From contig JAHBXT010000005.1 of the NCBI GenBank assembly GCA_019636385.1, positions 1-64,000 of the forward strand: a stretch of DNA of 64,000 nt, given 5' to 3'. Position 1 is the first letter of the stretch. The number at the start of each line of letters is the position of its first letter. Both the position numbers and the translations under genes were made by a program. Positions 20,525-28,844 of this stretch are shown piece after piece. Origin of the DNA: Pirellulaceae bacterium. Its GTDB lineage: Bacteria; Planctomycetota; Planctomycetia; Pirellulales; Pirellulaceae. Below the pieces are notes generated by a model. That model searched no databases. It was not told the DNA's origin and worked only from the letters and a program-made list of their open reading frames with translations.

Positions 20525-20607
20525 CTGCAACTCACACTCTCAACACACTGGCTGACTGAACTTGACAACACGGTTATACTCATCTGCCAGCCGTTCTCAA
20601 ACCAACT

Positions 20608-20679
20608 GCCCCCATAGTTAAGTGGATATAACAAGGCTTTCCTAAAGCTTAGTCACAGGTTCGAGTCCTGTTGGGGGTA
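20608..20679 (+). tRNA. tRNA-Arg (anticodon CCT)
   Basis: The 72-nt cloverleaf folds by eye. Acceptor GCCCCCA (20608-20614) pairs with TGGGGGT (20672-20678) with one G-T pair at the end. The D stem is GTTA/TAAC, the anticodon stem AGGCT/AGCTT with loop TTCCTAA giving CCT at 20641-20643, and the T arm is ACAGG-TTCGAGT-CCTGT. The discriminator is A20679 and CCA is not encoded. It reads the AGG codon. Its 3' part from 20660 is the left attachment core of the integrative element, and the integrase gene ends antisense inside its anticodon loop. The integration keeps the tRNA intact. Confidence 0.93.
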
Positions 20680-21925
20680 TCCCGCGTGCCATCACAAACC
20701 CTTGGGAAGCATCACTAGCAATGTTTTCCAAGGGTTTGTGCGTTGCGTGATTTTTAGTGATGGTTGCTGCACCGCTAGTGACAAGGGAACCAGTAAGGGG
20801 ACGGCGCTGTAGTGCGTTTTTCCAGTCGGCGTCGGTGACCTGTAGGTAGTGCTTTTGGGCCACGGCGGTGGAGTGTCCCAGCCACGAATCGCAGACGTGG
20901 GACCGGATGCCTTCGTTCTCTAACTCGGTCCTGCACGACGATCTAAGATTCACAAAGGGCTTGGCCCAAGGAACGATACCAGCTCGCTCTAGGATGCGTA
21001 GGAACTGAGTCCGCAGATTCTGCCCGTTGCGATATCGACGAACTATGTGTACAGCTCCGTCTGGTGCCAGCTCAAATGCAGCGGCTAACTCGGTGCGAAC
21101 CTCCGGGAACAACGGGCAGAATCGCAAGCCGGTTTTGGGCGAGTCGATGCGAATGCGGCCAGCGGCCCAGTCGATGTCGGTCCACTTCAAAGTTAAAACC
21201 TCGGACGGGCACCGCATTCCGCAGAATCTTGCCAAGGCGAATATGCAACGCCAATCCGCATCTGGACACGCTTCAAGAATTTGCTGGGCCATGGTGCTAT
21301 CAATGAAACGCTGCCGATCCGGGTTGGCCTCGGAACCACCTTTCAGATTCTCGAACGGACTGTCGACTAGCAAACGGTCCCGCACAGCTTCGGCCAAGAG
21401 CGTCTTGGCCCGCTTGCAATGCTTGCTGACGGTCGCAACGGCTAAACCCTTGTCTAAAACCATCCACCTCCGCCACTTATCTGCGTCGGCTGGCGAGATA
21501 CGGTTCATGGGGTGTCGCTCGCCGAAGTATTCGCACAGCAACCGTCGAACCTGCCGATAGTTGCTAATGGTGTTCGGTTTGCAATCGGTACGGCTGCTAA
21601 TGTAAGCATCGACGAATGGCCCCAACAGTCGGCCATCATCTTGGAGCAATCGCGGATTGGTCGGCTCGGCCAGTCCCCAGGCGACTAACGATTCTCGCAA
21701 ACGGCCTGTAGTGCCAGATGCCCATTTCGCAGACTCGGCTGCTGGTGGAATGTTGTTTAGTTTGGACGACGCAAGCTCATCAACGTGCCAACAAATGATC
21801 TCGGCTTGCCGCTCGGCTTTCTTGCTCTTGCCAGGAATGTAGATTTCCCGCTGGCGATTTTCGCAATAGAACCGGATGCGGAATCCGTTGCGACCGTTGC
21901 TAGAGAGGCGGCTGATGCTGGCCAT
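20642..21925 (-). CDS. int: Tyrosine-recombinase integrase of the tRNA-Arg element
   Basis: Site-specific integrase of 427 residues in the present, integrated state. An N-terminal arm/core-binding part (from FVDAYISSRTDCKPNTISNY) precedes the catalytic domain with Arg in ARFCGMRCPSEVL, Lys in DSPKTGL, a VNLRSSCRTEL box, His in SWLGHST and the nucleophile Tyr in QKHYLQV. The usual first His of the HxxR box is Val here. The C-terminus GIPPTGLEPVTKL is written by antisense tRNA sequence: IPPTGLE is the attachment core and the stop codon (20642-20644) lies in the tRNA anticodon loop. In an excised circle the same frame would continue into the tail at 27968-28149 instead. Start ATG 21925. Confidence 0.92.
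   Translation of the reverse strand: MASISRLSSNGRNGFRIRFYCENRQREIYIPGKSKKAERQAEIICWHVDELASSKLNNIPPAAESAKWASGTTGRLRESLVAWGLAEPTNPRLLQDDGRLLGPFVDAYISSRTDCKPNTISNYRQVRRLLCEYFGERHPMNRISPADADKWRRWMVLDKGLAVATVSKHCKRAKTLLAEAVRDRLLVDSPFENLKGGSEANPDRQRFIDSTMAQQILEACPDADWRCIFALARFCGMRCPSEVLTLKWTDIDWAAGRIRIDSPKTGLRFCPLFPEVRTELAAAFELAPDGAVHIVRRYRNGQNLRTQFLRILERAGIVPWAKPFVNLRSSCRTELENEGIRSHVCDSWLGHSTAVAQKHYLQVTDADWKNALQRRPLTGSLVTSGAATITKNHATHKPLENIASDASQGFVMARGIPPTGLEPVTKL
20660..20680 (+). repeat. Left attachment core (attL), 21-bp direct repeat
   Basis: The 21 bases beginning TTCGAGTCCTG recur exactly at 28150-28170. They cover the T loop, T stem and 3' acceptor of tRNA-Arg(CCT). The two copies bound the element that carries the integrase, so they are its attachment sites. 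The flanking base differs on both sides (G versus T before; C versus T after), which fixes the core at 21 bp. Confidence 0.93.
20693..20740. repeat. Perfect 13-bp inverted repeat next to attL
   Basis: CACAAACCCTTGG at 20693-20705 is mirrored by CCAAGGGTTTGTG at 20728-20740, with a 22-nt loop. It lies 13 bp from the attachment core and inside the 3' end of the integrase gene. A degraded copy (AAACCTTG ... CCAGGGTTT, about 28187-28227) stands at the same distance from the right core, in the second integrase remnant. This suggests a conserved function such as recombination-protein binding or a hairpin limiting transcription. Confidence 0.7.
20782..20800 (+). promoter_or_regulatory. Candidate integrase arm-type site, left copy
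   Basis: CAAGGGAACCAGTAAGGGG lies 102 bp inside the element from the left core. A near-identical word, CAAGGGAACCGGTAAGGGA (28088-28106), lies 44 bp inside from the right core in the same orientation. In an excised circle the two would flank the core, as arm-type integrase sites do. The assignment is inference from position and similarity. Confidence 0.45.
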
Positions 21926-22050
21926 GAGCGAATACTCCTATCGCTGACTCAAAAGAAAACACGGCAACAAGTGAGTAGCTCGCTTTCGGCTGCGCTGCCT
22001 AGCCGTGCAGGTCTCAATGTATCGGGTGGTGGTCATGGTGCTAAGCGCGA

Positions 22051-22344
22051 TTACCAATATCGGGTGTACTTGGGCGTAGCAGTTGGCGTAGCAGTTGGCG
22101 TAGCACTCAGCCGGTAGACATCGGTATCACGCCCGCAGCGTCTCACTTGAGTGTGAGATACTTGCCCGGCTCGCATTGCCCGACCAATAGCTTTGGCGAT
22201 TCGCTGGGGTCCCATGCCTGTCCTGCGTACCAACTGGAATTCCGATAGCCACTTGCCACCACAGCGGTCACGTTTTCGGGGTGTAGGCGAGCTGGTAGTT
22301 TCATTTTGGCTTGATCTTCCCTGCCTGCCGGTAGTGCTCTTCCC
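22051..22344 (-). pseudogene. Winged-helix-like reading frame without a clear start
   Basis: This open stretch encodes a winged-helix-like sequence (LVRRTGMGPQRIAKAIGRAM, then VYRLSATPTATP) but has no ATG before the helix-turn-helix and no ribosome-binding site. It is in the same frame as the RepA-like ATPase gene just upstream, from which it is separated by stop codons at 22387-22389 and 22345-22347 inside the CGGTA repeat cluster. The ATPase itself ends in a similar winged-helix segment. It may be a detached remnant of a longer C-terminus or a small gene with a rare start codon. The end codes for a threefold Ala-Thr-Pro repeat from a 12-bp tandem repeat at 22076-22104. Confidence 0.35.
22076..22104 (+). 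repeat. 12-bp tandem repeat (2.4 copies)
   Basis: GTAGCAGTTGGC is repeated at 22076-22087 and 22088-22099, followed by five more bases of the unit. It lies in the end of the winged-helix-like frame, where the minus strand reads Ala-Thr-Pro-Thr repeats. Confidence 0.8.
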
Positions 22345-22427
22345 TTACCGGTATTAAATAACCGGTAGGGGTAGACCCCATACCGGCTAAAAATGATTCG
22401 GTATGGATTCGGTATGGCTTTCCGGTA
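22329..22427. repeat. Iteron-like cluster of CGGTA/TACCG motifs
   Basis: Seven CGGTA words (six on plus at 22329, 22349, 22363, 22399, 22410, 22423 and one inverted at 22381) fall in 99 bp, most flanked as CCGGTAG or TCGGTAT. Two more occur at 22112 and 22122. The cluster straddles the end of the RepA-like ATPase gene. Short spaced repeats beside a replication-type gene are the hallmark of iteron origins or of binding sites for the element's own regulator. Confidence 0.5.
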
Positions 22428-23484
22428 GGGCTTTGGTCCAAACGACAAACTTTTGTTTCCCTCCACGCCATCTTTTCCGTTGTGAACTGACCTGCTTGTT
22501 TCGACTGAGAATGCCAAGTAGCCGCATACAACGGTTTTGGCCGAACCCGCTTTTGGTAATTAGCGAATTTTGGACAATGCCCCGCTCAGGGATAATTGAG
22601 AGTAGGTGGTCACAATAAACCTGATCCTGTTTTGATTGTTCCTCCGTGTTGCGCCTGGTTTGCTTCTTAACCAATGGTTCCGCAGTAGTCGCACTCCAGA
22701 GCGGCCAATTGAAGCGGATAGATACTGGCTCAGGCGACTGCCACGACCTGCAAACTGCCTCCAGTACGCATTGCTCGCTGTCCTCGTGCGGCCTGATGAC
22801 TAAGTGTGTATCGGCTGCACGGCTGATTGCGCCCGCACCAGCTCCAACGTCGGTGATGAATTTATCGCCCTGCTGGCCTTTGGAGCTGTGATTGACCACC
22901 ACAATCGCGGCCTGCCATTTAGCGGCTATGGCGTCCAGGTGGTTGTAGACGCTCATCATTGCCGAATTGTCGTTCTCACTAGTACCCGGTGGCAAAGTGC
23001 GATAGAGGGCATCCAACACCACTAGCCGATACCGATCTGGCGGCACGTCTAGCAGTGTCAATGTCTCAACGCTCATGGCTCGACCACGCAACGATATGAC
23101 GTCCAGTAGGCCACGCTGGCTATGGTCGATCTTCATTGCGTCCGCAATTTGATCCAAGAGGCTGGCTAGCGTTTCTGCGTGTAACTCGTTGTCGATAACC
23201 AACACTCGGCCCGGTTCAACGTCATGACTGAGCCACGGTCTGCCAGTCGCTATGCACCAGGCTAGATTGCCAGCGAGAAACGACTTGCCAACTTTTGGCG
23301 CTGCGATGACATTGGCTACCTCGCCCAGTCGCAATAAGCCGTGTACGACTGGCTGTCGTAGCTCAGTATGCTGCTTGGCCAGTTCGACAAACGATACTGG
23401 CTTGGCTAGCGATACTGCGTCCGTCGTAGTCCTGATGATATCGCTGGCAGGCGTATTTCGGGGGTCGTGGTGCTCAGGCATCAT
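22387..23484 (-). CDS. RepA-like AAA ATPase (RecA-fold, replication-type)
   Basis: A 365-residue protein of the AAA_25/RepA-like RecA-fold ATPase group common in mobile elements, which often act as replicative helicase or helicase loader. Walker A is APKVGKS (residues 62-68), with VIAAPKVGKSFLAGNLAW typical of the family; RLVVLDAL is the likely Walker B strand and IVVVNHSSKG a sensor-like strand. The C-terminal part (residues about 290-350) looks like a winged helix (GIVQNSLITKSGFGQNRCMR). The start at ATG 23484 overlaps the end of the upstream helix-turn-helix gene, implying translational coupling; in-frame ATGs at 23493 and 23481 are alternatives. The iteron-like cluster overlaps its 3' end, which fits a replication role. 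Function beyond the fold is inference. Confidence 0.82.
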   Translation of the reverse strand: MMPEHHDPRNTPASDIIRTTTDAVSLAKPVSFVELAKQHTELRQPVVHGLLRLGEVANVIAAPKVGKSFLAGNLAWCIATGRPWLSHDVEPGRVLVIDNELHAETLASLLDQIADAMKIDHSQRGLLDVISLRGRAMSVETLTLLDVPPDRYRLVVLDALYRTLPPGTSENDNSAMMSVYNHLDAIAAKWQAAIVVVNHSSKGQQGDKFITDVGAGAGAISRAADTHLVIRPHEDSEQCVLEAVCRSWQSPEPVSIRFNWPLWSATTAEPLVKKQTRRNTEEQSKQDQVYCDHLLSIIPERGIVQNSLITKSGFGQNRCMRLLGILSRNKQVSSQRKRWRGGKQKFVVWTKALPESHTESIPNHF

Positions 23485-23713
23485 GGCCCCCATTCTTATT
23501 GGCGAGCAGGTCACTGCGTCGATACCGTCGCAGCCGACCGAACTTGCGCGACGGGATGAGTCCCGCACGAGTCCAACGTTCGACCGTCGGCACGCTACAG
23601 CCCAGTAGTCGGGCGGCACCGTGCGAATCGAGTAGGCCATCGCTATCAGGCTGGCCACTGAGTCGAGTGGCCACGGCGTCGGCAATGGCGGAGATATCAG
23701 CGGGGGTCAGCAT
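23474..23713 (-). CDS. Helix-turn-helix excisionase-type protein
   Basis: Small DNA-binding protein of 79 residues. The core LLDSHGAARLLGCSVPTVER followed by WTRAGLIPSRKFGRLRRYRR is the MerR/AlpA-type helix-turn-helix of excisionases and small element regulators. The N-terminal 25 residues (LTPADISAIADAVATRL) look like a short helix. It overlaps the preceding helix-turn-helix gene by 17 bp and the following ATPase gene by 11 bp, so the three form one tightly packed operon. Candidate roles are excision control or regulation of the replication module. Confidence 0.8.
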   Translation of the reverse strand: MLTPADISAIADAVATRLSGQPDSDGLLDSHGAARLLGCSVPTVERWTRAGLIPSRKFGRLRRYRRSDLLANKNGGHDA

Positions 23714-23918
23714 CGGTGGTGCCCTCCGTGCTAGTAGTCTTGGTTTGGCGATTCGCCGCCAGCCACTGCTCGACGGCGGACGGGTCGTACATCGCTCGCC
23801 GACGCAACCTGATGAACGGCAACCGCTTGTGGTCCCGCCAATACCTGAGAGTCACCACCGATACGCCTACACGCCTAGCCATATCGCGGCAGTTGTATAG
23901 TTGCTTTTCTTGAGTCAT
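23697..23918 (-). CDS. Helix-turn-helix excisionase/regulator-type protein
   Basis: A 73-residue protein with the layout of a helix_turn_helix-17 excisionase: YNCRDMARRVGVSVVTLRYW then RDHKRLPFIRLRRRAMYDPS and AVEQWLAANR. It begins the operon that continues into the second helix-turn-helix gene (17-bp overlap) and the RepA-like ATPase. Two such small regulators in a row often divide the tasks of excisionase and repressor; which is which cannot be told here. Start ATG 23918; the 23919-23999 gap upstream should contain the operon promoter. Confidence 0.78.
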   Translation of the reverse strand: MTQEKQLYNCRDMARRVGVSVVTLRYWRDHKRLPFIRLRRRAMYDPSAVEQWLAANRQTKTTSTEGTTDADPR

Positions 23919-23999
23919 ACCTAACCTCCATTGGTCGAAAATCGAAACAACGGGGCTAGATTTGCTCAGTAGTGATACAACTGCAAACTCGCAGAGTGT

Positions 24000-24287
24000 C
24001 TATTTCTGAATTTTTTTCGGTCCCCGAATCTGCCGATAAGCCGCGTTGACCGACGTTTGGCCGGACTCGACCTTGGCGATTAGCTCAGTGTCCTCTGATG
24101 CGAGCACCCGCAAAGCGGACCATGCTATACCTCGCCCGACCCGCATCTCCTTGGCCCGCGATTCCAGCTCTGACCGGTAGTTTGGCGAGCGCTCTGATAT
24201 CAGAGCGCTTTCCTTGGTGACGGCCTCTCTGGCAATTTTTGCGACCATGATTGCCCGCTGGCTGGTTGTTAGGTACTGACGATTCAT
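24000..24287 (-). CDS. Small ParB-like protein
   Basis: A 95-residue protein. Residues 1-20 (MNRQYLTTSQRAIMVAKIAR) match the helix found after the nuclease-like fold of ParB-family proteins. Then SRAKEMRVGRG-like and LIAKVESGQTSVNAAYRQIR segments match the ParB helix-turn-helix region (family pattern: ...VLASEDTELIAKVESG). The N-terminal ParB/Srx domain itself is absent, so this is a stand-alone helical piece. ATG 24287 is preceded by AAGGAAA, a fair ribosome-binding site. It overlaps the upstream helix-turn-helix gene by about 200 bp in another frame. A perfect 22-bp palindrome (24188-24209) lies within its coding sequence. Role in segregation or regulation is guesswork. Confidence 0.6.
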   Translation of the reverse strand: MNRQYLTTSQRAIMVAKIAREAVTKESALISERSPNYRSELESRAKEMRVGRGIAWSALRVLASEDTELIAKVESGQTSVNAAYRQIRGPKKIQK

Positions 24288-24483
24288 CGTTGGTTTTCCT
24301 TGCTTCGGTATTTTCCTTTCGAATTTCCAACCACTGTTGCACGTCTGTCCAGCGGCACATGTGCCTCCGGCATGGCCGTATAGACGGCAAGCCGCGATAT
24401 AGCCGCCATTGGCGTATGCTTTCATGGCTGACGCTTAGTCGCCGTGCTACTTCTGAAGCACAAATCAATCGTTCCTCATTCAT
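24085..24483 (-). CDS. Helix-turn-helix protein with 3' end overlapping the ParB-like gene
   Basis: The first 60 residues are a clear MerR/AlpA-type helix-turn-helix: MNEERLICASEVARRLSVSH, then RQWRLYRGLPSIRPCRRHM and WTDVQQWLEIRKE. From about residue 65 on, the same DNA also encodes the ParB-like protein in another frame, and this frame loses family likeness (Arg/Gly-rich). Either the gene truly overlaps its neighbour by 200 bp, or an indel has removed a stop shortly after residue 65. The N-terminal domain is confident; the C-terminal half is doubtful. Confidence 0.55.
   Translation of the reverse strand: MNEERLICASEVARRLSVSHESIRQWRLYRGLPSIRPCRRHMCRWTDVQQWLEIRKENTEARKTNDESSVPNNQPAGNHGRKNCQRGRHQGKRSDIRALAKLPVRAGIAGQGDAGRARYSMVRFAGARIRGH
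24188..24209. repeat. Perfect 22-bp palindrome, copy 1
   Basis: AGCGCTCTGAT followed by its exact reverse complement, centred on GATATC. It lies inside the ParB-like coding sequence, where it encodes the residues ESALISER. The same 20-bp core plus two bases recurs at 27850-27871 at the other side of the element, and a related palindrome stands at 26075-26096. Confidence 0.9.
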
Positions 24484-24694
24484 ACGATTGCCTTTCGTAT
24501 TGCAACTTTTCCAACAGAGTTACAGGTGTTCGCCGTGACCCGCAACAACGGCGACGCCTCCACCACATATAGACTGTTTCCCCGACGGAATCTGTCGCGG
24601 ATACTGCGGCTTTCCGGAAATGCGTTTCCGATGCGAAGTGACGTTGTGCATCGCCCCTAGCAAACAGGTCCTATCTCATAGGGAGGGCCATGCC

Positions 24695-24802
24695 ATGACC
24701 AAAGAAGTGACATACACAATCAAGTTGATCGACGATCCAGGCAATCGCGCGTTGCTGGACGTTCAGGGCAGTCGCTGGCAGATCGAGAGTTGGGCGGATT
24801 GA
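24695..24802 (+). CDS. Small unknown plus-strand gene
   Basis: A 35-residue frame starting at ATG 24695 with a GGGAGG ribosome-binding site about eight bases upstream. The peptide TYTIKLIDDPGNRALLDVQG is beta-strand-like and not low-complexity. It overlaps the following frame at 24790, which has no ATG. The two may be one gene split by a frameshift (the first would lead into LTRAIRAEVDVRN) or two coupled genes. I do not recognise the family. Confidence 0.4.
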   Translation: MTKEVTYTIKLIDDPGNRALLDVQGSRWQIESWAD

Positions 24803-25023
24803 CCAGAGCGATTCGGGCAGAGGTCGACGTCCGCAACCAATTAAAAGTGCAGACCCGTATCGACACAGAAGCATTGAGCCGTCAGATATCTGAGGCGATC
24901 GACGCGCAAATCAAGAAGCAGGTCGGCCAGCTTGGACAGTTGATCGAGCAGCGGCAGGACAAAGAAAAGGCACAGCGAATTGGAGAGTTCCAGCAGAGCC
25001 AGCAGGCCAAGAGGAGCAGCTAG
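24790..25023 (+). CDS. Small unknown coiled-coil-like protein
   Basis: A 77-residue frame with TTG 24790 as first possible start, overlapping the preceding small gene by 13 bp. The sequence ISEAIDAQIKKQVGQLGQLI followed by EQRQDKEKAQR is strongly amphipathic and Gln/Lys/Glu-rich, as in a coiled coil. It ends 11 bp before the convergent antitoxin gene. No family recognised; could be the second half of one frameshifted gene with 24695-24802. Confidence 0.4.
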   Translation: MGGLTRAIRAEVDVRNQLKVQTRIDTEALSRQISEAIDAQIKKQVGQLGQLIEQRQDKEKAQRIGEFQQSQQAKRSS

Positions 25024-25034
25024 TTAGCTACAAC

Positions 25035-25397
25035 TCATTTCGCACTGGCATTGACTTGCTTCATTTCAAGCGAATCGCTGACTCTTCTTCGGAAGTAATC
25101 GGGGTTTCTCTGGATTTCATCCATGAAACGGCAAGCTGCATCGGGTGGCGACTTCTTTCCCTGCTCCCAGGCACATACACTATTGCGCGAAAAACCCAGG
25201 AACTCTGCAAACAGAGCTTGGCTCAATTGCAAAATCTTACGTGTCGCTTTGACCTGCTCCGGAGTGTACTCTTGAGGTTCGAGATTCAGGACCAATCGAC
25301 GGCACGTAAACGGCTTGTCTTGCTTTAGCTTGTCAACAAGCCATTCCATACCCTCCAACAGGTCTCGTTCAATAGAATTCAGTTCTTTGTTTGTCAT
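25035..25397 (-). CDS. HigA/NadS-like helix-turn-helix antitoxin
   Basis: A 120-residue protein with a C-terminal Xre-type helix-turn-helix: EYTPEQVKATRKILQLSQAL, then FAEFLGFSRNSVCAWEQGKK and SPPDAACRFMDEI. This is the arrangement in HigA/NadS antitoxins, where the DNA-binding domain also autoregulates the operon. It lies 37 bp downstream of the RelE/HigB-like toxin gene on the same strand, i.e. toxin-first order, as in higBA modules. Expected to bind the toxin with its N-terminal helix (residues 1-40) and stabilise the element by post-segregational killing or buffer a stress response. Confidence 0.8.
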   Translation of the reverse strand: MTNKELNSIERDLLEGMEWLVDKLKQDKPFTCRRLVLNLEPQEYTPEQVKATRKILQLSQALFAEFLGFSRNSVCAWEQGKKSPPDAACRFMDEIQRNPDYFRRRVSDSLEMKQVNASAK

Positions 25398-25434
25398 GTT
25401 AATTTGTTCGTCGTAATGTGTTGTGGAGATGGCT

Positions 25435-25890
25435 TCAATTCAGTCTGAGTGGCCATCTCCTACGAAGTTCCCTACCAGCCTCTATCACCAATTTGTTCAA
25501 CTGTCTCTTGACTCCTTCTGAAATGTCTTCGATTTCACTCTTGCTGTACACCAGCAGAAAATGGACGAATCCGTACCCCTCAAAATACACGTACAGCACC
25601 CGATATCCGCCGCTTTTACCAACATTCCGCCCCGGAGGCACGAAACGTCCTTTTCGTATCCCATCAGTGCCAGGTATCACTGGCGCAAACTTCGGGTCAA
25701 CGCAAATAGCGATTTGCAAAGCAAACAAATCTCTCTCAACATCCAAACCCAGTTGTCCCCAACGTCTAATGAAAGCTGGCGATTCTTCAAAGTTCAACAG
25801 GTCTTCAGGCCGCAGCCAATGCTTGGGATACTTTAGCGTCGCTTGCTGCCTCTTGTATTGCCTCATGCCAAACCCTTCTCGATCTTCCAT
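25435..25890 (-). CDS. RelE/HigB-like toxin
   Basis: A 151-residue protein of the RelE/ParE superfamily. ATG 25890 has AAGGAG seven bases before it and is preferred over ATG 25908. The end shows the family strands SGGYRVLYVYFEGYGFVHFL and LVYSKSEIEDISEGVKRQLN, and IRKGRFVPPGRNVGKSGG is the loop where RelE-type toxins place basic residues. The protein is longer than RelE (95 aa) and fits HigB-like or phage Gp49-like toxins. It precedes a helix-turn-helix antitoxin gene. An mRNA-cleaving activity is the family expectation. Confidence 0.8.
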   Translation of the reverse strand: MEDREGFGMRQYKRQQATLKYPKHWLRPEDLLNFEESPAFIRRWGQLGLDVERDLFALQIAICVDPKFAPVIPGTDGIRKGRFVPPGRNVGKSGGYRVLYVYFEGYGFVHFLLVYSKSEIEDISEGVKRQLNKLVIEAGRELRRRWPLRLN

Positions 25891-26074
25891 ACTACACTCC
25901 TTATCCATCGGTCTGCCCCTTCCGTGGAATCAACGAATTGTACTCCGGTGGAGCATAGTTAGCAATCATGGAGCGGCTGATTTTGCCGATTTCGTTGATG
26001 CTATCGCTTGCGTAAACGCTAGCAACCGCAAGTCCGGAATCCAGATATTCCCAGCGAATTAGCGACCTTCAATA

Positions 26075-26096
26075 AGCGCCCCGATATCGGGGCGCT
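26075..26096. terminator. GATATC-centred perfect palindrome, probable terminator
   Basis: AGCGCCCCGAT with its exact reverse complement follows directly on the stop of the minus-strand zinc-ribbon gene at 26100. On the minus strand it is followed by TTATT, so it can work as an intrinsic terminator. It differs from the 24188 and 27850 palindromes in only two positions per arm and shares the AGCGC ends and the GATATC centre. Confidence 0.6.
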
Positions 26097-26099
26097 CAA

Positions 26100-26285
26100 T
26101 CAATCCCACCATGTAGACTCGGCCAACCGCTGGCAACACTCCGGCGAATGCTGGACTTCAGCCACGATTTCAGGATCGTCAAACGACGCGGCCAGCTCGC
26201 AGTCGGCACAGCAATAGCCGTCGTCACCGGCTACAGGGCGACCGCATCCAGGCGACTTGCACTTGCCACTAGACAGCCCGGCCAT
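26100..26285 (-). CDS. Small zinc-ribbon-like protein
   Basis: A Cys-rich protein of 61 residues when started at ATG 26285; a GTG or other start up to 26366 is possible but would overlap the terminase fragment. CKSPGCGRPVAGDDGYCCADC contains CxxxxC and CCxxC pairs suited to zinc binding, followed by CELAASFDDPE and a later CC. No family recognised. It follows the truncated terminase on the same strand and ends at the 26075-26096 palindrome. Phage genes with such small zinc ribbons often sit beside terminase genes. Confidence 0.5.
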   Translation of the reverse strand: MAGLSSGKCKSPGCGRPVAGDDGYCCADCELAASFDDPEIVAEVQHSPECCQRLAESTWWD

Positions 26286-26314
26286 AACGACCCACTTCTT
26301 CGGCTTCGGCTTGC

Positions 26315-26764
26315 CTAACGTGCCCTCCAAGACAAGATGAGCACCGGCGACAGCACTTTGAACCAATCCGATTCCATCAACGCCCGCGAATCGGACGAAT
26401 CACGTATTAACAGCCCGTTATCGTAGGCTACAGACAGCACGCCAAACCGCTGGTCAATCGTCCACACCCACGCCGGAAACACCACGCTAAACAGCACAGA
26501 CTTGAGGCATTCCGGTGGTAGATTGAACACCAGACGATCCAGTTTCACGCCGTCGGCCCGTCGCTTGCCCTCGATTGCTGCTTGCAGGTAATTGCAAAGG
26601 ACTGGAATGTACTTGGCAAGATTCAGCTTGCCGTCGGCTCTAGGAACGTGCGGCCAAGCGTACCACAGAAAGTTGCACAAGTTCCGACACGCTGCCCGCA
26701 TCGGTGCTCGCCATGCCGGATCGGCTGCTAGCTCACTGTAGTCAGGTCGTAGGAGCTTGTCCAT
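26315..26764 (-). pseudogene. Truncated phage terminase large subunit (N-terminal part)
   Basis: The 149-residue product matches the N-terminal ATPase part of phage terminase large subunits: an NFLWYAWPHV helix, a membrane-free hydrophobic block with LVFNLPPECLKS as Walker-A-like loop (PP..xKS, residues 81-89), VVFPAWVWT, RFGVLSVAYDNGLLIRDSSD and LMESDWFK. Intact enzymes run to 450-600 residues and hold a Walker B and a nuclease domain; here translation stops soon after SDWFK. The remaining two-thirds are not found downstream. So the protein is probably inactive, and the element may once have been packageable. Confidence 0.75.
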
Positions 26765-26787
26765 CTCACGCCCTAGCCGCTGCCGAG

Positions 26788-26865
26788 TCAGTCAACCGGT
26801 TCCGCGTCTGTCCAGGGTTCGACGATATCTTCGTACTTCCATCGCCAGGCCAGAACATACCGCAT
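26788..26865 (-). CDS. Possible 25-residue small protein
   Basis: A very short frame starting at ATG 26865 reads MRYVLAWRWKYEDIVEPW and ends TDAEPVD. It lies just upstream of the terminase fragment on the same strand, and the sequence is not low-complexity. It is in the same frame as the preceding 26890-27135 gene, separated from it only by the stop at 26890-26892 and eight codons. It could be a true small protein or the cut-off end of that gene. Confidence 0.25.
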   Translation of the reverse strand: MRYVLAWRWKYEDIVEPWTDAEPVD

Positions 26866-26889
26866 CAGACGGCAGGACAGAGCTGACAA

Positions 26890-27135
26890 CTAATCGTCGG
26901 GCAGCAGTACGGCCCTGCTACGCCTTATCGTGATACTCGGCTCGCCAGCGGGCTTAGCATCGATTGGATCAATGAGCACACTGAGTCGGGGACGTTGCCG
27001 CACATCATCGACCATGGCATCCCACGCTACCACGTCCCAGCAGTTGAGCGGGTCGTAAAGGAAATGGCAGCGCCATCGTTTGACGTACTGATGCGTCTTA
27101 CGATGGGCGAAACCTTGCAAACGCCACCGCGCCAT
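26890..27135 (-). CDS. Small unknown basic protein
   Basis: An 81-residue frame from ATG 27135. It is rich in Arg, Trp and aromatic residues (MARWRLQGFAHRKTHQYVKR, then FLYDPLNCWDVV). No family recognised, and the ribosome-binding site is weak. It is divergent from the plus-strand gene at 27180 and leads into the terminase region. An in-frame TAG separates it from the small frame 26788-26865. Confidence 0.4.
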   Translation of the reverse strand: MARWRLQGFAHRKTHQYVKRWRCHFLYDPLNCWDVVAWDAMVDDVRQRPRLSVLIDPIDAKPAGEPSITIRRSRAVLLPDD

Positions 27136-27179
27136 GGCAAGCTGCGTATTTGCCAGGGGGAATAGGGGGATTTTCTGTC

Positions 27180-27575
27180 GTGATTAGTAGATTCAATGTC
27201 GAACGACCGCGTGAAGATCTGCGGATGCTCAACGAATCCGTCCGCAACGGCTGGCCAGTCTCGCCGGAGATGAAGCAGGAGGCTGTAGAATTCTGCCATT
27301 CGGTGATGTCCGACGGTCGCTGCGTCCGCAACCAGCTCGCCGCTATCAAGTTGTTGTTGTGTATGGATTCGCTCAATCTTCGTGCTCATGCCCAAGCGGG
27401 AGGCACAGACGATATCGCACCCCGGACGACCGAAGATGTATTGATAGAGAAGTACGTTGACGGGATGACCCCAGACGAAGCAACAGAGCTACTTGCCGAG
27501 ATGGGGCAAGCTGTCATAGCGGGCCAATACGACAAAAACTGGATATTGAAACATGCTGCAAGGTCGAAAACGTAG
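27180..27575 (+). CDS. Unknown element protein, possible small-terminase-like
   Basis: A 131-residue protein starting at GTG 27180, where an AGGGGGA ribosome-binding site (27164-27169) gives good spacing. Sequence such as LRMLNESVRNGWPVSPEMKQ, then EFCHSVMSDGRCVRNQLAAI and TPDEATELLAEMG is helical and acidic. The N-terminal 70 residues resemble the DNA-binding part of small terminase subunits or recombination-type proteins, but this is weak. Its stop overlaps the next gene by 23 bp, so the two are coupled. Divergent from the small minus-strand gene at 27135. Confidence 0.6.
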   Translation: MISRFNVERPREDLRMLNESVRNGWPVSPEMKQEAVEFCHSVMSDGRCVRNQLAAIKLLLCMDSLNLRAHAQAGGTDDIAPRTTEDVLIEKYVDGMTPDEATELLAEMGQAVIAGQYDKNWILKHAARSKT

Positions 27576-27846
27576 TCGGCCAGAGCCTGACAAGCCCGCC
27601 GAACCGATCGAGCGTATCGCTGCGGTCAGTGTGTTCAAGTTGGAGCAGTTGGAGCGGGCTGCCCAAGTTGCTGAGCATGTTCGCTTAACCGCTAAAGAAG
27701 TTGAGCAAGCAGAGTTCGAGCTGTGTCTCTGGAAGAAAAATGTCCGGATGGCTCAAGAGCAGATTCGCACCCTGAAAGACCAGATCGTCGATTTATTGAA
27801 CGACGGACCAAAAACAGAAAACCCCCAGCAAACGCCAGGGGTTTAG
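27553..27846 (+). CDS. Coiled-coil-like unknown element protein
   Basis: A 97-residue protein. After a basic, Pro-rich start (GRKRSRPEPDKPAEPIERI), residues 28-85 form a long amphipathic helix (VFKLEQLERAAQVAEHVRLT, then AKEVEQAEFELCLWKKN and VRMAQEQIRTLKDQIVDLL), i.e. a likely coiled coil. The start ATG 27553 overlaps the upstream gene by 23 bp. The intrinsic terminator at 27819-27844 overlaps the last codons, so the two-gene operon ends here. Function unknown; scaffold or adaptor roles are only guesses. Confidence 0.6.
   Translation: MLQGRKRSRPEPDKPAEPIERIAAVSVFKLEQLERAAQVAEHVRLTAKEVEQAEFELCLWKKNVRMAQEQIRTLKDQIVDLLNDGPKTENPQQTPGV
27819..27844 (+). terminator. Stem-loop terminator of the 27.2-27.8 kb operon
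   Basis: AAACCCC (27819-27825) pairs with GGGGTTT (27838-27844) around a 12-base loop. It overlaps the last codons of the coiled-coil-like gene. A palindrome (27850-27869) follows within six bases and may act as a backup. Confidence 0.6.
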
Positions 27847-27849
27847 TGG

Positions 27850-27869
27850 GCGCTCTGATATCAGAGCGC
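27850..27869. repeat. Perfect 20-bp palindrome, copy 2
   Basis: GCGCTCTGAT and its mirror, centred on GATATC, six bases after the operon terminator. The 22 bases from 27850 are identical to 24189-24210. It lies between the last plus-strand gene and the right end of the element. Confidence 0.9.
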
Positions 27870-27967
27870 TTAATCGCTTTGATCGGCTAGCGGCTATCCG
27901 ACGTCGAACATGATATTAATACTATGCGGAATGCTCGAGAGGGCAGCGGCCACCGTCGCATTGTGGG

Positions 27968-28213
27968 TCAGGTGGTCGGCTGCTGTGCCAGCTTTCGGGC
28001 GAAGTCTAGTAGCTGCTGGCGGTCGGATTCAGACAGAGATTCCCAGAGGGTCTTGAGGGCGTCCAGTTGGTCGGTTTTTGACGCGAGCAAGGGAACCGGT
28101 AAGGGAACCGAATCGGGAATTTGCGTAGAACCTTGGGATTGTTGAGTTCTTTCGAGTCCTGTTGGGGGTATTAAGCCAGCCATCGCTAAACCTTGCAAAG
28201 CATCAATACCCAC
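27968..28213 (-). CDS. Integrase C-terminal tail, joined to int only in the excised circle
   Basis: The frame runs across the right attachment core. Codons inside the element (27968-28149) encode a 60-residue tail: RTQQSQGSTQIPDSVPLPVP, then LLASKTDQLDALKTLWESLS and ESDRQQLLDFARKLAQQPTT. The core codes IPPTGLE in exactly the frame used by the integrase at the left end. Excision would therefore place this tail after the integrase's IPPTGLE, giving a 482-residue protein instead of 427. In the present chromosome the frame upstream of the core belongs to the decayed neighbouring integrase, so this is not an independent gene. The GTG at 28213 is the only start-like codon and is probably not used. 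The LWESLSESDRQQLL helix looks like a real, folded C-terminal module. Confidence 0.7.
   Translation of the reverse strand: MGIDALQGLAMAGLIPPTGLERTQQSQGSTQIPDSVPLPVPLLASKTDQLDALKTLWESLSESDRQQLLDFARKLAQQPTT
28088..28106 (+). promoter_or_regulatory. Candidate integrase arm-type site, right copy
   Basis: CAAGGGAACCGGTAAGGGA matches the left candidate at 20782-20800 with two differences and lies 44 bp from the right core. A further partial copy, GGGAACCGAATC, follows at 28103. Same orientation as the left copy, as expected for sites flanking attP in a circle. Confidence 0.45.
28150..28170 (+). repeat. Right attachment core (attR), 21-bp direct repeat
   Basis: Exact copy of 20660-20680, i.e. the T-loop to acceptor end of tRNA-Arg(CCT), without the 5' part of a tRNA. 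It marks the right end of the element. Sequence beyond it continues with the remnant of a second integrase. Confidence 0.93.
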
Positions 28214-28330
28214 GTTTTCCAGGGTTTCTTGAGACCCCAGATTTTAGTGAGGGATACGGAACCGTTAGCAATGGCGGGACGGATGGGGGGACGAGATTGG
28301 GGTCGCTCTACCAACGGGTTTTAATCAAAA
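28171..28330 (-). pseudogene. Remnant of a second, related integrase (C-terminal end)
   Basis: Reading the minus strand towards attR gives LENVGIDALQGLAMAGLIPPTGLE, which aligns with LENIASDASQGFVMARGIPPTGLE of the intact integrase at the left end. An in-frame TAA at 28244-28246 and a frame change break it. Further upstream a second frame (VPPSVPPLLTVPYPSLK) still resembles the intact protein's RRPLTGSLVTSGAAT. It is therefore the decayed left end of another element that used the same tRNA site before the present element entered. Confidence 0.7.
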
Positions 28331-28380
28331 CGGTTGCATTAAAGAAAGGGGGGTGAAAATTTTAATGACGGTTATGGGCG

Positions 28381-28844
28381 TTAAAATCTGGGCCGCCAAG
28401 ACGCCAGCTCTAACAGTTTGGCAACATTGCCTGCAATCCGTTCTTCCAACTCACGGGCTTCGCTGTTGAGAACTTCCAGTTCTTCGTTGAATTCTTCCAG
28501 CCGATTGGCAAAATTGAAATTGTCTTCCCCCTTGTCCGCTACGCCGACGTAGCGACCAGGATTGAGACTTTGAACTTGGGCATCCCCAGCCGAAAGCAGG
28601 GATCGTCCTTGATTCTACTCTAGCGACTTAATCCACGTTGAACGGCAGATTGGCCATCACGAAGTCGAACTTGCCTACGCATTCGTGCAAATCTTCGTAG
28701 TAGTTGTTCCCCCTGCCGAATGGCGTCAGAGAGTGCCCTTCGGCATGGGCAGGGAGCATTCCGACGACTTGAGCTTGCTGTTGGCCGGTAACTCATCGGC
28801 CGACGCCCAGAGGCGTTTTCGATTTTGAAATGGTTGTTGGCCAT
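28381..28844 (-). pseudogene. Degraded type I restriction methylase hsdM
   Basis: Three pieces of an HsdM protein survive on the minus strand. First MANNHFKIEN (start 28844) with, after a one-base frameshift, [20 protein letters not shown], the HsdM N-terminus. Then [20 protein letters not shown] followed by LPFNVD and a stop (28629-28631), which is the DNA-methylase NPPFNV motif with Pro changed to Leu. Last [20 protein letters not shown] and the coiled end [20 protein letters not shown], stop at 28381. The central SAM-binding region is deleted. A full HsdM is about 500 residues; here under a third remains. Confidence 0.8.

Follow-up and report, generated by a model that had tools for sequence, protein, structure and literature searches.

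Attachment sites embedded in the integrase genes of planctomycete tRNA-targeting elements, and a C-terminus that integration very probably swaps

We found that a 7.5-kb element integrated at tRNA-Arg(CCT) carries its attachment site inside its own tyrosine integrase gene (Table 1), and it is very probable that the C-terminus of the enzyme is swapped when the element integrates. The element lies in the window, the 64,000-nucleotide stretch of Pirellulaceae DNA analysed here. Its integrase is one of a large group of planctomycete tyrosine integrases that target tRNA genes, and in this family attP, consisting of the core and arm-like repeats, is embedded in the part of the gene that encodes a long, probably disordered linker. 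The circle would encode the full-length enzyme. Integration would split the gene at the core, leaving the catalytic part whole at attL, where it ends in a few antisense tRNA residues, and stranding the tail at attR as a silent frame. The sequences show that the gene is split in integrated elements, that the frame and motif of the tail are conserved, and that the gene is unsplit in free forms. The explanation as a whole, in which a gene split at an embedded attP is combined with a tail-dependent bias in the direction of recombination, is one that we consider probable; its functional part is what we infer from these observations.

Table 1. Features of the integrated element and of the sequence adjoining its right end (positions in the window)
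Feature	Position	Strand	Basis
tRNA-Arg(CCT), integration target	20607..20682	+	ARAGORN
attL core, 21 bp, minus-strand reading IPPTGLE	20660..20680	.	direct repeat with 28151-28171
attR core, 21 bp	28151..28171	.	repeat of attL core
Tyrosine integrase, integrated tail-less form, 427 aa	20642..21925	-	PF00589 (E 4e-11), PF13102; PHROG 1 integrase (E 8e-37)
Hairpin with 20-bp stem inside the integrase coding region, just 3' of the tRNA	20693..20740	+	MFE -36.7 kcal/mol, z -6.5
Putative P-arm site for the integrase, int-sense sequence CCCCTTACTGGTTCCCTTGTC, within the integrase coding sequence	20780..20800	-	direct repeat with P-prime arm
HTH_17 / excisionase-like protein, candidate directionality factor	23474..23713	-	domain and PHROG matches
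HTH_17 / excisionase-like protein, candidate directionality factor	23697..23918	-	domain and PHROG matches
Displaced integrase 3' end, 60-aa tail	27968..28150	-	integrase frame stays open; homologues of the tail at relatives' attR
Helical module of the tail, LDALKTLWESLSESDRQQLLDFARKLA	27983..28072	-	motif common to 28 tails; modelled as a helix hairpin in a full-length relative
Putative P-prime arm site, int-sense sequence GGTTCCCTTACCGGTTCCCTTGCTC, within the tail coding sequence	28085..28109	-	direct repeat with P arm
Probable remnant of an older second integrase (decayed C-terminal end), fused to the tail in the same frame	28172..28243	-	similarity to the integrase C-terminus

The left copy of the core (TTCGAGTCCTGTTGGGGGTAT) lies at the 3' end of tRNA-Arg(CCT), which is intact at attL, and the 21-bp core is repeated at attR, as in a tRNA-integrated element. 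In tRNA-targeted islands, the integrase adjoins the tRNA and integration rebuilds the 3' end of the tRNA. A preliminary description of this DNA had placed the attachment core within the integrase gene, and the integrase ORF does cross the left core copy; both copies read I-P-P-T-G-L-E on the minus strand, in the same frame, as stated there. Its coordinates were correct for the left copy of the core, and those for the right copy (28150-28170) were one base off. The integrated form of the integrase ends in PVTKL, which is tRNA antisense, and its stop codon overlaps the anticodon of tRNA-Arg(CCT); the ORF translation and the ARAGORN tRNA agree in this respect with the earlier account of a stop in the anticodon loop. 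The catalytic residues R238, K264, R328, and Y360 are invariant among 15 relatives; together with the PF00589 match and the fold match to Tn1549 Int and lambda Int, they identify the enzyme as a tyrosine recombinase. When both ends of the element are joined in silico, the circle-form integrase is 482 aa long, the length that had been anticipated for the excised circle.

At attR, the integrase frame stays open for 60 codons past the core, as first described, and ends in ...LWESLSESDRQQLLDFARKLAQQPTT with a stop at 27968. The accompanying claim that such a frame is improbable by chance does not stand for the window alone, where 60 open codons have a probability of ~0.11 (~11%) given the local composition, a value that leaves room for a fortuitous frame; the claim does stand once relatives are taken into account. 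Homologous tails occur at the attR of relatives (e.g., L031, 37% identity, E 8e-8), and a tail profile matches the window at 2e-19, the window sequence being one of the 23 rows from which the profile was built. We count the fortuitous frame as already refuted by these comparative data and give it practically no credence.

Related integrases were detected by protein search in 52 of 60 relatives and in 196 of 241 genomes of the family. A single relative, CA13, came from one scan of genome contigs, and no related integrase was found in the plasmid and phage collections searched. About 100 loci were fetched, and 106 integrase matches reach the catalytic tyrosine. A tRNA (Glu, Arg, Gln, Val, Ser, Met, Lys, Asn, Leu, Ile, or SeC) lies on the 3' side of 83 of these, and the ORF enters its tRNA in 78 of the 83. 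The core repeat was located for 44 of the tRNA-linked integrases and was not found in the fetched stretch for the other 39. The integrase frame enters the core in 40 of these 44 elements. Every one of the 40 keeps this frame open at attR, and the tails are similar, which bears out the expected conservation of the tail frame among related elements. Including the core, the tails are 26-114 codons long (median ~67, compared with a median of 10 in the other two frames of the 40 elements); three of them are short (26-40 codons). Frames were assigned from the read-out of the core and not from the position of the integrase frame relative to the tRNA end, which is noisy because the end given by ARAGORN shifts by a base. 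Three reading frames of the core (GLE-, DSN-, and RTR-type) are in use across ten tRNA isotypes, and the tail is in frame regardless.

In 32 of the 40 elements the core is flanked, within the coding sequence, by arm-like direct repeats, based on a score of >=12 between an element's own P and P-prime regions (reached by 80% of own pairs and 4% of mispaired ones). One copy precedes the core by ~90-135 bp and the other follows it by 37-65 bp, both on the same strand, and the repeats are private to each element. Usually they take the form of a double motif spaced by about one helical turn. Judged by their sequence, they look like integrase arm sites and are treated here as putative. The hairpin just 3' of the tRNA is probably an element-borne terminator of the tRNA transcript; its counterpart stretch outside attR folds poorly now.

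Given that both arm-like sites are in coding sequence, DNA constraints could explain part of the open frame. The tail might then be a functionless by-product, at the protein level, of a compact int-attP module in which the attachment site overlaps the end of the integrase because the arm sites have to lie nearby, and a few tails are indeed short or devoid of the conserved motif. This reading is unlikely in our judgement: the frame is open in 40 of 40 elements over three core frames, and a conserved helical module is placed beyond the P-prime arm, with conservation by codon position in the order 2 > 1 > 3 (in an alignment anchored on the motif).

The module (W-L-R-LL, with the consensus LLxxWxxLxxxxRxxLLxxAR) is carried by most tails, and the W motif is absent from several tails associated with Val and Met tRNAs. 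Similarity between tails (E<=1e-3) was detected for 113 of 780 pairs in frame, versus 27 and 28 in the other frames. Among pairs picked by BLAST similarity, pN is lower than pS in 113 of 115 in frame and in 24 of 32 and 33 of 35 in the control frames. The control frames lean the same way because of the BLAST selection, and selection on the tail is not cleanly separable from the control frames by pN/pS. Searches of Pfam and PDB with the tail returned no matching family. A QSxETxGKT-like stretch of ~10 residues, located just past the core and before the P-prime arm, recurs in many tails.

The tail profile matches 120 of 240 family genomes and 65 of 294 phylum genomes, and nearly all of these matches are short orphan frames, which is what attR ends should give. 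We also used held-out regions picked by the tail profile alone. Among the 15 that were usable, within 19 kb, two have the full layout of tail, integrase, and matching tRNA core (L213 with tRNA-Ala and L215 with tRNA-Met), three have a partial layout, and ten have none. Many of the profile-matched tails may be remnants or parts of larger elements.

Unsplit integrases that have tails and no tRNA were found by scanning viral contigs (L132, L134, and L141). The L132 integrase has 496 aa, with the core PPRGVEQ, and that of L134 has 504 aa. L141 has a 123-bp terminal repeat and, closed there, forms a putative circle of 7,314 bp with an integrase of 506 aa; the core and tail are contiguous in this contig, and their join to the catalytic part depends on the terminal repeat. 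All of these full-length examples are less than 50% identical to the enzyme of the window. The preliminary description had proposed the circle junction as a test, and in these natural unintegrated metagenomic forms the frames do join.

The AlphaFold2 model of the full-length L132 enzyme (pLDDT 75, pTM 0.44) comprises, in order, an N-terminal strand-strand-strand-helix domain, the core-binding and catalytic domains, a disordered linker (residues 374-461, pLDDT<50), and a C-terminal helix hairpin (residues 457-492). The core sits in the disordered linker ahead of the helix hairpin, so integration is predicted to detach the hairpin. The model suggests that attP is probably positioned within the disordered linker, between the catalytic domain and the C-terminal hairpin. 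Foldseek matches to this model include Tn1549 Int and lambda Int, which the family also resembles in the predicted N-terminal domain and in having arm-like repeats around the core; the two-sided, putative sites of the 32 elements are those expected of lambda-type arm sites. Unlike in lambda, where attP is outside int, attP with both arm-like repeats lies within the integrase coding sequence. In other tRNA-targeted elements, such as pSAM2 and phage P22, attP lies against the 3' end of int or overlaps it. To our knowledge, a removable C-terminal domain that is conserved throughout a family has not been reported for tRNA-targeted integrases.

The right-hand ORF of the window (27968-28213) passes beyond the core outward and continues in frame up to 28243. 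The 22 aa outside attR that adjoin the core resemble the C-terminus of this integrase (45%, E 0.001, a weak similarity in one frame); the whole match, tail included, is 85% over 91 aa. Because it resembles the integrase's own C-terminus, the stretch outside attR is, in the simplest reading of its sequence, probably what remains of the end of an older, decayed integrase in tandem rather than a coding region of the host. Positions 28172-28640 have the appearance of a decayed older element, in which the integrase 3' end is followed by minus-strand fragments resembling a type I restriction methylase (identified by eye). In L044, a congener with the same tRNA, the remnant outside attR enters the core in a frame other than that of the tail. 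At three other loci (L039, L068, and L094), a second integrase or remnant outside attR runs into the tail of its neighbour. These loci are tandem arrays; in each, the downstream integrase is joined to the upstream element's tail without a frame break, as a chimeric frame (L039:12028-12912, L094:11587-12642, and L068); the fused integrase is near full length in L094 and partial in L039 and L068. A different arrangement was seen at L034:7000-8280, where the core of an integrase gives way to a decayed tRNA-Lys, with a tail-like remnant beyond it.

The 7.5-kb element also encodes an AAA_25 primase/helicase-like protein and three excisionase-like HTH genes. An N-terminal fragment of a terminase large subunit (PHROG 38, E 3.6e-10) is located at 26315-26764 on the minus strand, and from its sequence the cargo looks satellite-like. 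An antitoxin-like HTH protein (MqsA/NadS-like) lies beside a small conserved PHROG 5869 protein (25035-25908, minus strand), possibly forming a toxin-antitoxin pair.

Direction control in tyrosine integrases is usually ascribed to separate excisionases. Translation of the tail, however it acts, requires the circle or a tandem array, so it is in these forms that selection on the tail must presumably act. A single integrated copy cannot translate the tail, yet the protein is conserved, which suggests that the full-length enzyme matters before integration. Excision starts from the integrated copy, where the tail-less form is the only one, so this form is probably competent for excision. Given a pre-integration role of the full-length enzyme and excision by the tail-less form, we prefer a bias in direction exerted by the tail, a proposal that we put forward with some reserve. 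The tail would most likely favour integration, or restrain excision, until insertion takes it away; the tail-less form should still excise, together with an excisionase, and in tandem arrays the downstream integrase would regain a tail from its neighbour.

The archaeal suicidal integrases (SSV1, pTN3, and pT26-2) also have the att site in their own gene, which is split on integration and intact in the free form (PMC8371274). This precedent, and the tandem arrays L039 and L094 that restore a tail to the downstream integrase, would fit a suicidal integration in which the tail-less enzyme is inactive and the elements are locked, excision being dependent on full-length enzyme supplied by a tandem neighbour or by a separate element. 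The archaeal split parts the catalytic from the N-terminal portion, whereas the planctomycete split takes only the C-terminal tail and leaves the catalytic domain whole. Tail-less integrases retain their catalytic residues and open frames throughout the family, and we doubt that they are inactive. In addition, the archaeal enzymes belong to Phage_integr_3 (PF16795), the window integrase matches PF00589 and PF13102 only, with no match to PF16795, and the hosts here are bacterial.

A second comparison is with the integration-dependent immunity of mycobacteriophage BPs, in which attP lies in the repressor gene, the prophage product is C-terminally shortened and stable, and the long form is degraded via an ssrA-like tag (PMC4557955). 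The planctomycete integrases follow the same genetic logic, with attP within a gene whose product is shortened at its C-terminus on integration, and the BPs integrase likewise has a C-terminal proteolysis signal (PMC4557955). The long form could accordingly be unstable here too, with integration yielding a stable short form, but the split gene is the integrase and not the repressor, and the tails are not tag-like. Their last residue is non-hydrophobic in 34 of 40 cases, most end in polar or charged residues, and a terminal pair of aliphatic residues, as in ssrA-type tags, is seen in none of the 40. What is conserved is an amphipathic module inside the tail. A degradation tag is thus very unlikely, and a tail that biases direction remains our preferred reading. 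The planctomycete family partly works like the archaeal suicidal integrases and like BPs, and is a member of neither.

Self-disrupting recombinases were described as exclusively archaeal in a 2021 review (PMC8371274), a statement that the planctomycete layout contradicts. A precedent for a bacterial integrase was not found in the open-access literature, and an earlier description in subscription papers is possible. In this family the enzyme is altered by the very reaction that it catalyses, and the layout recurs in numerous elements of planctomycetes, at ten or more tRNA isotypes. Orphan tails provide a sequence marker for the right ends of elements in planctomycete genomes, and the natural pairs of long and short enzymes allow a direct test of a C-terminal extension in site-specific recombination. 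More speculatively, the family might use a DNA-encoded isoform switch, with the full-length enzyme dedicated to integration and the tail-less one to excision, so that, in a bacterial family that is widespread, recombination would in one and the same step reset the direction in which its own enzyme works.
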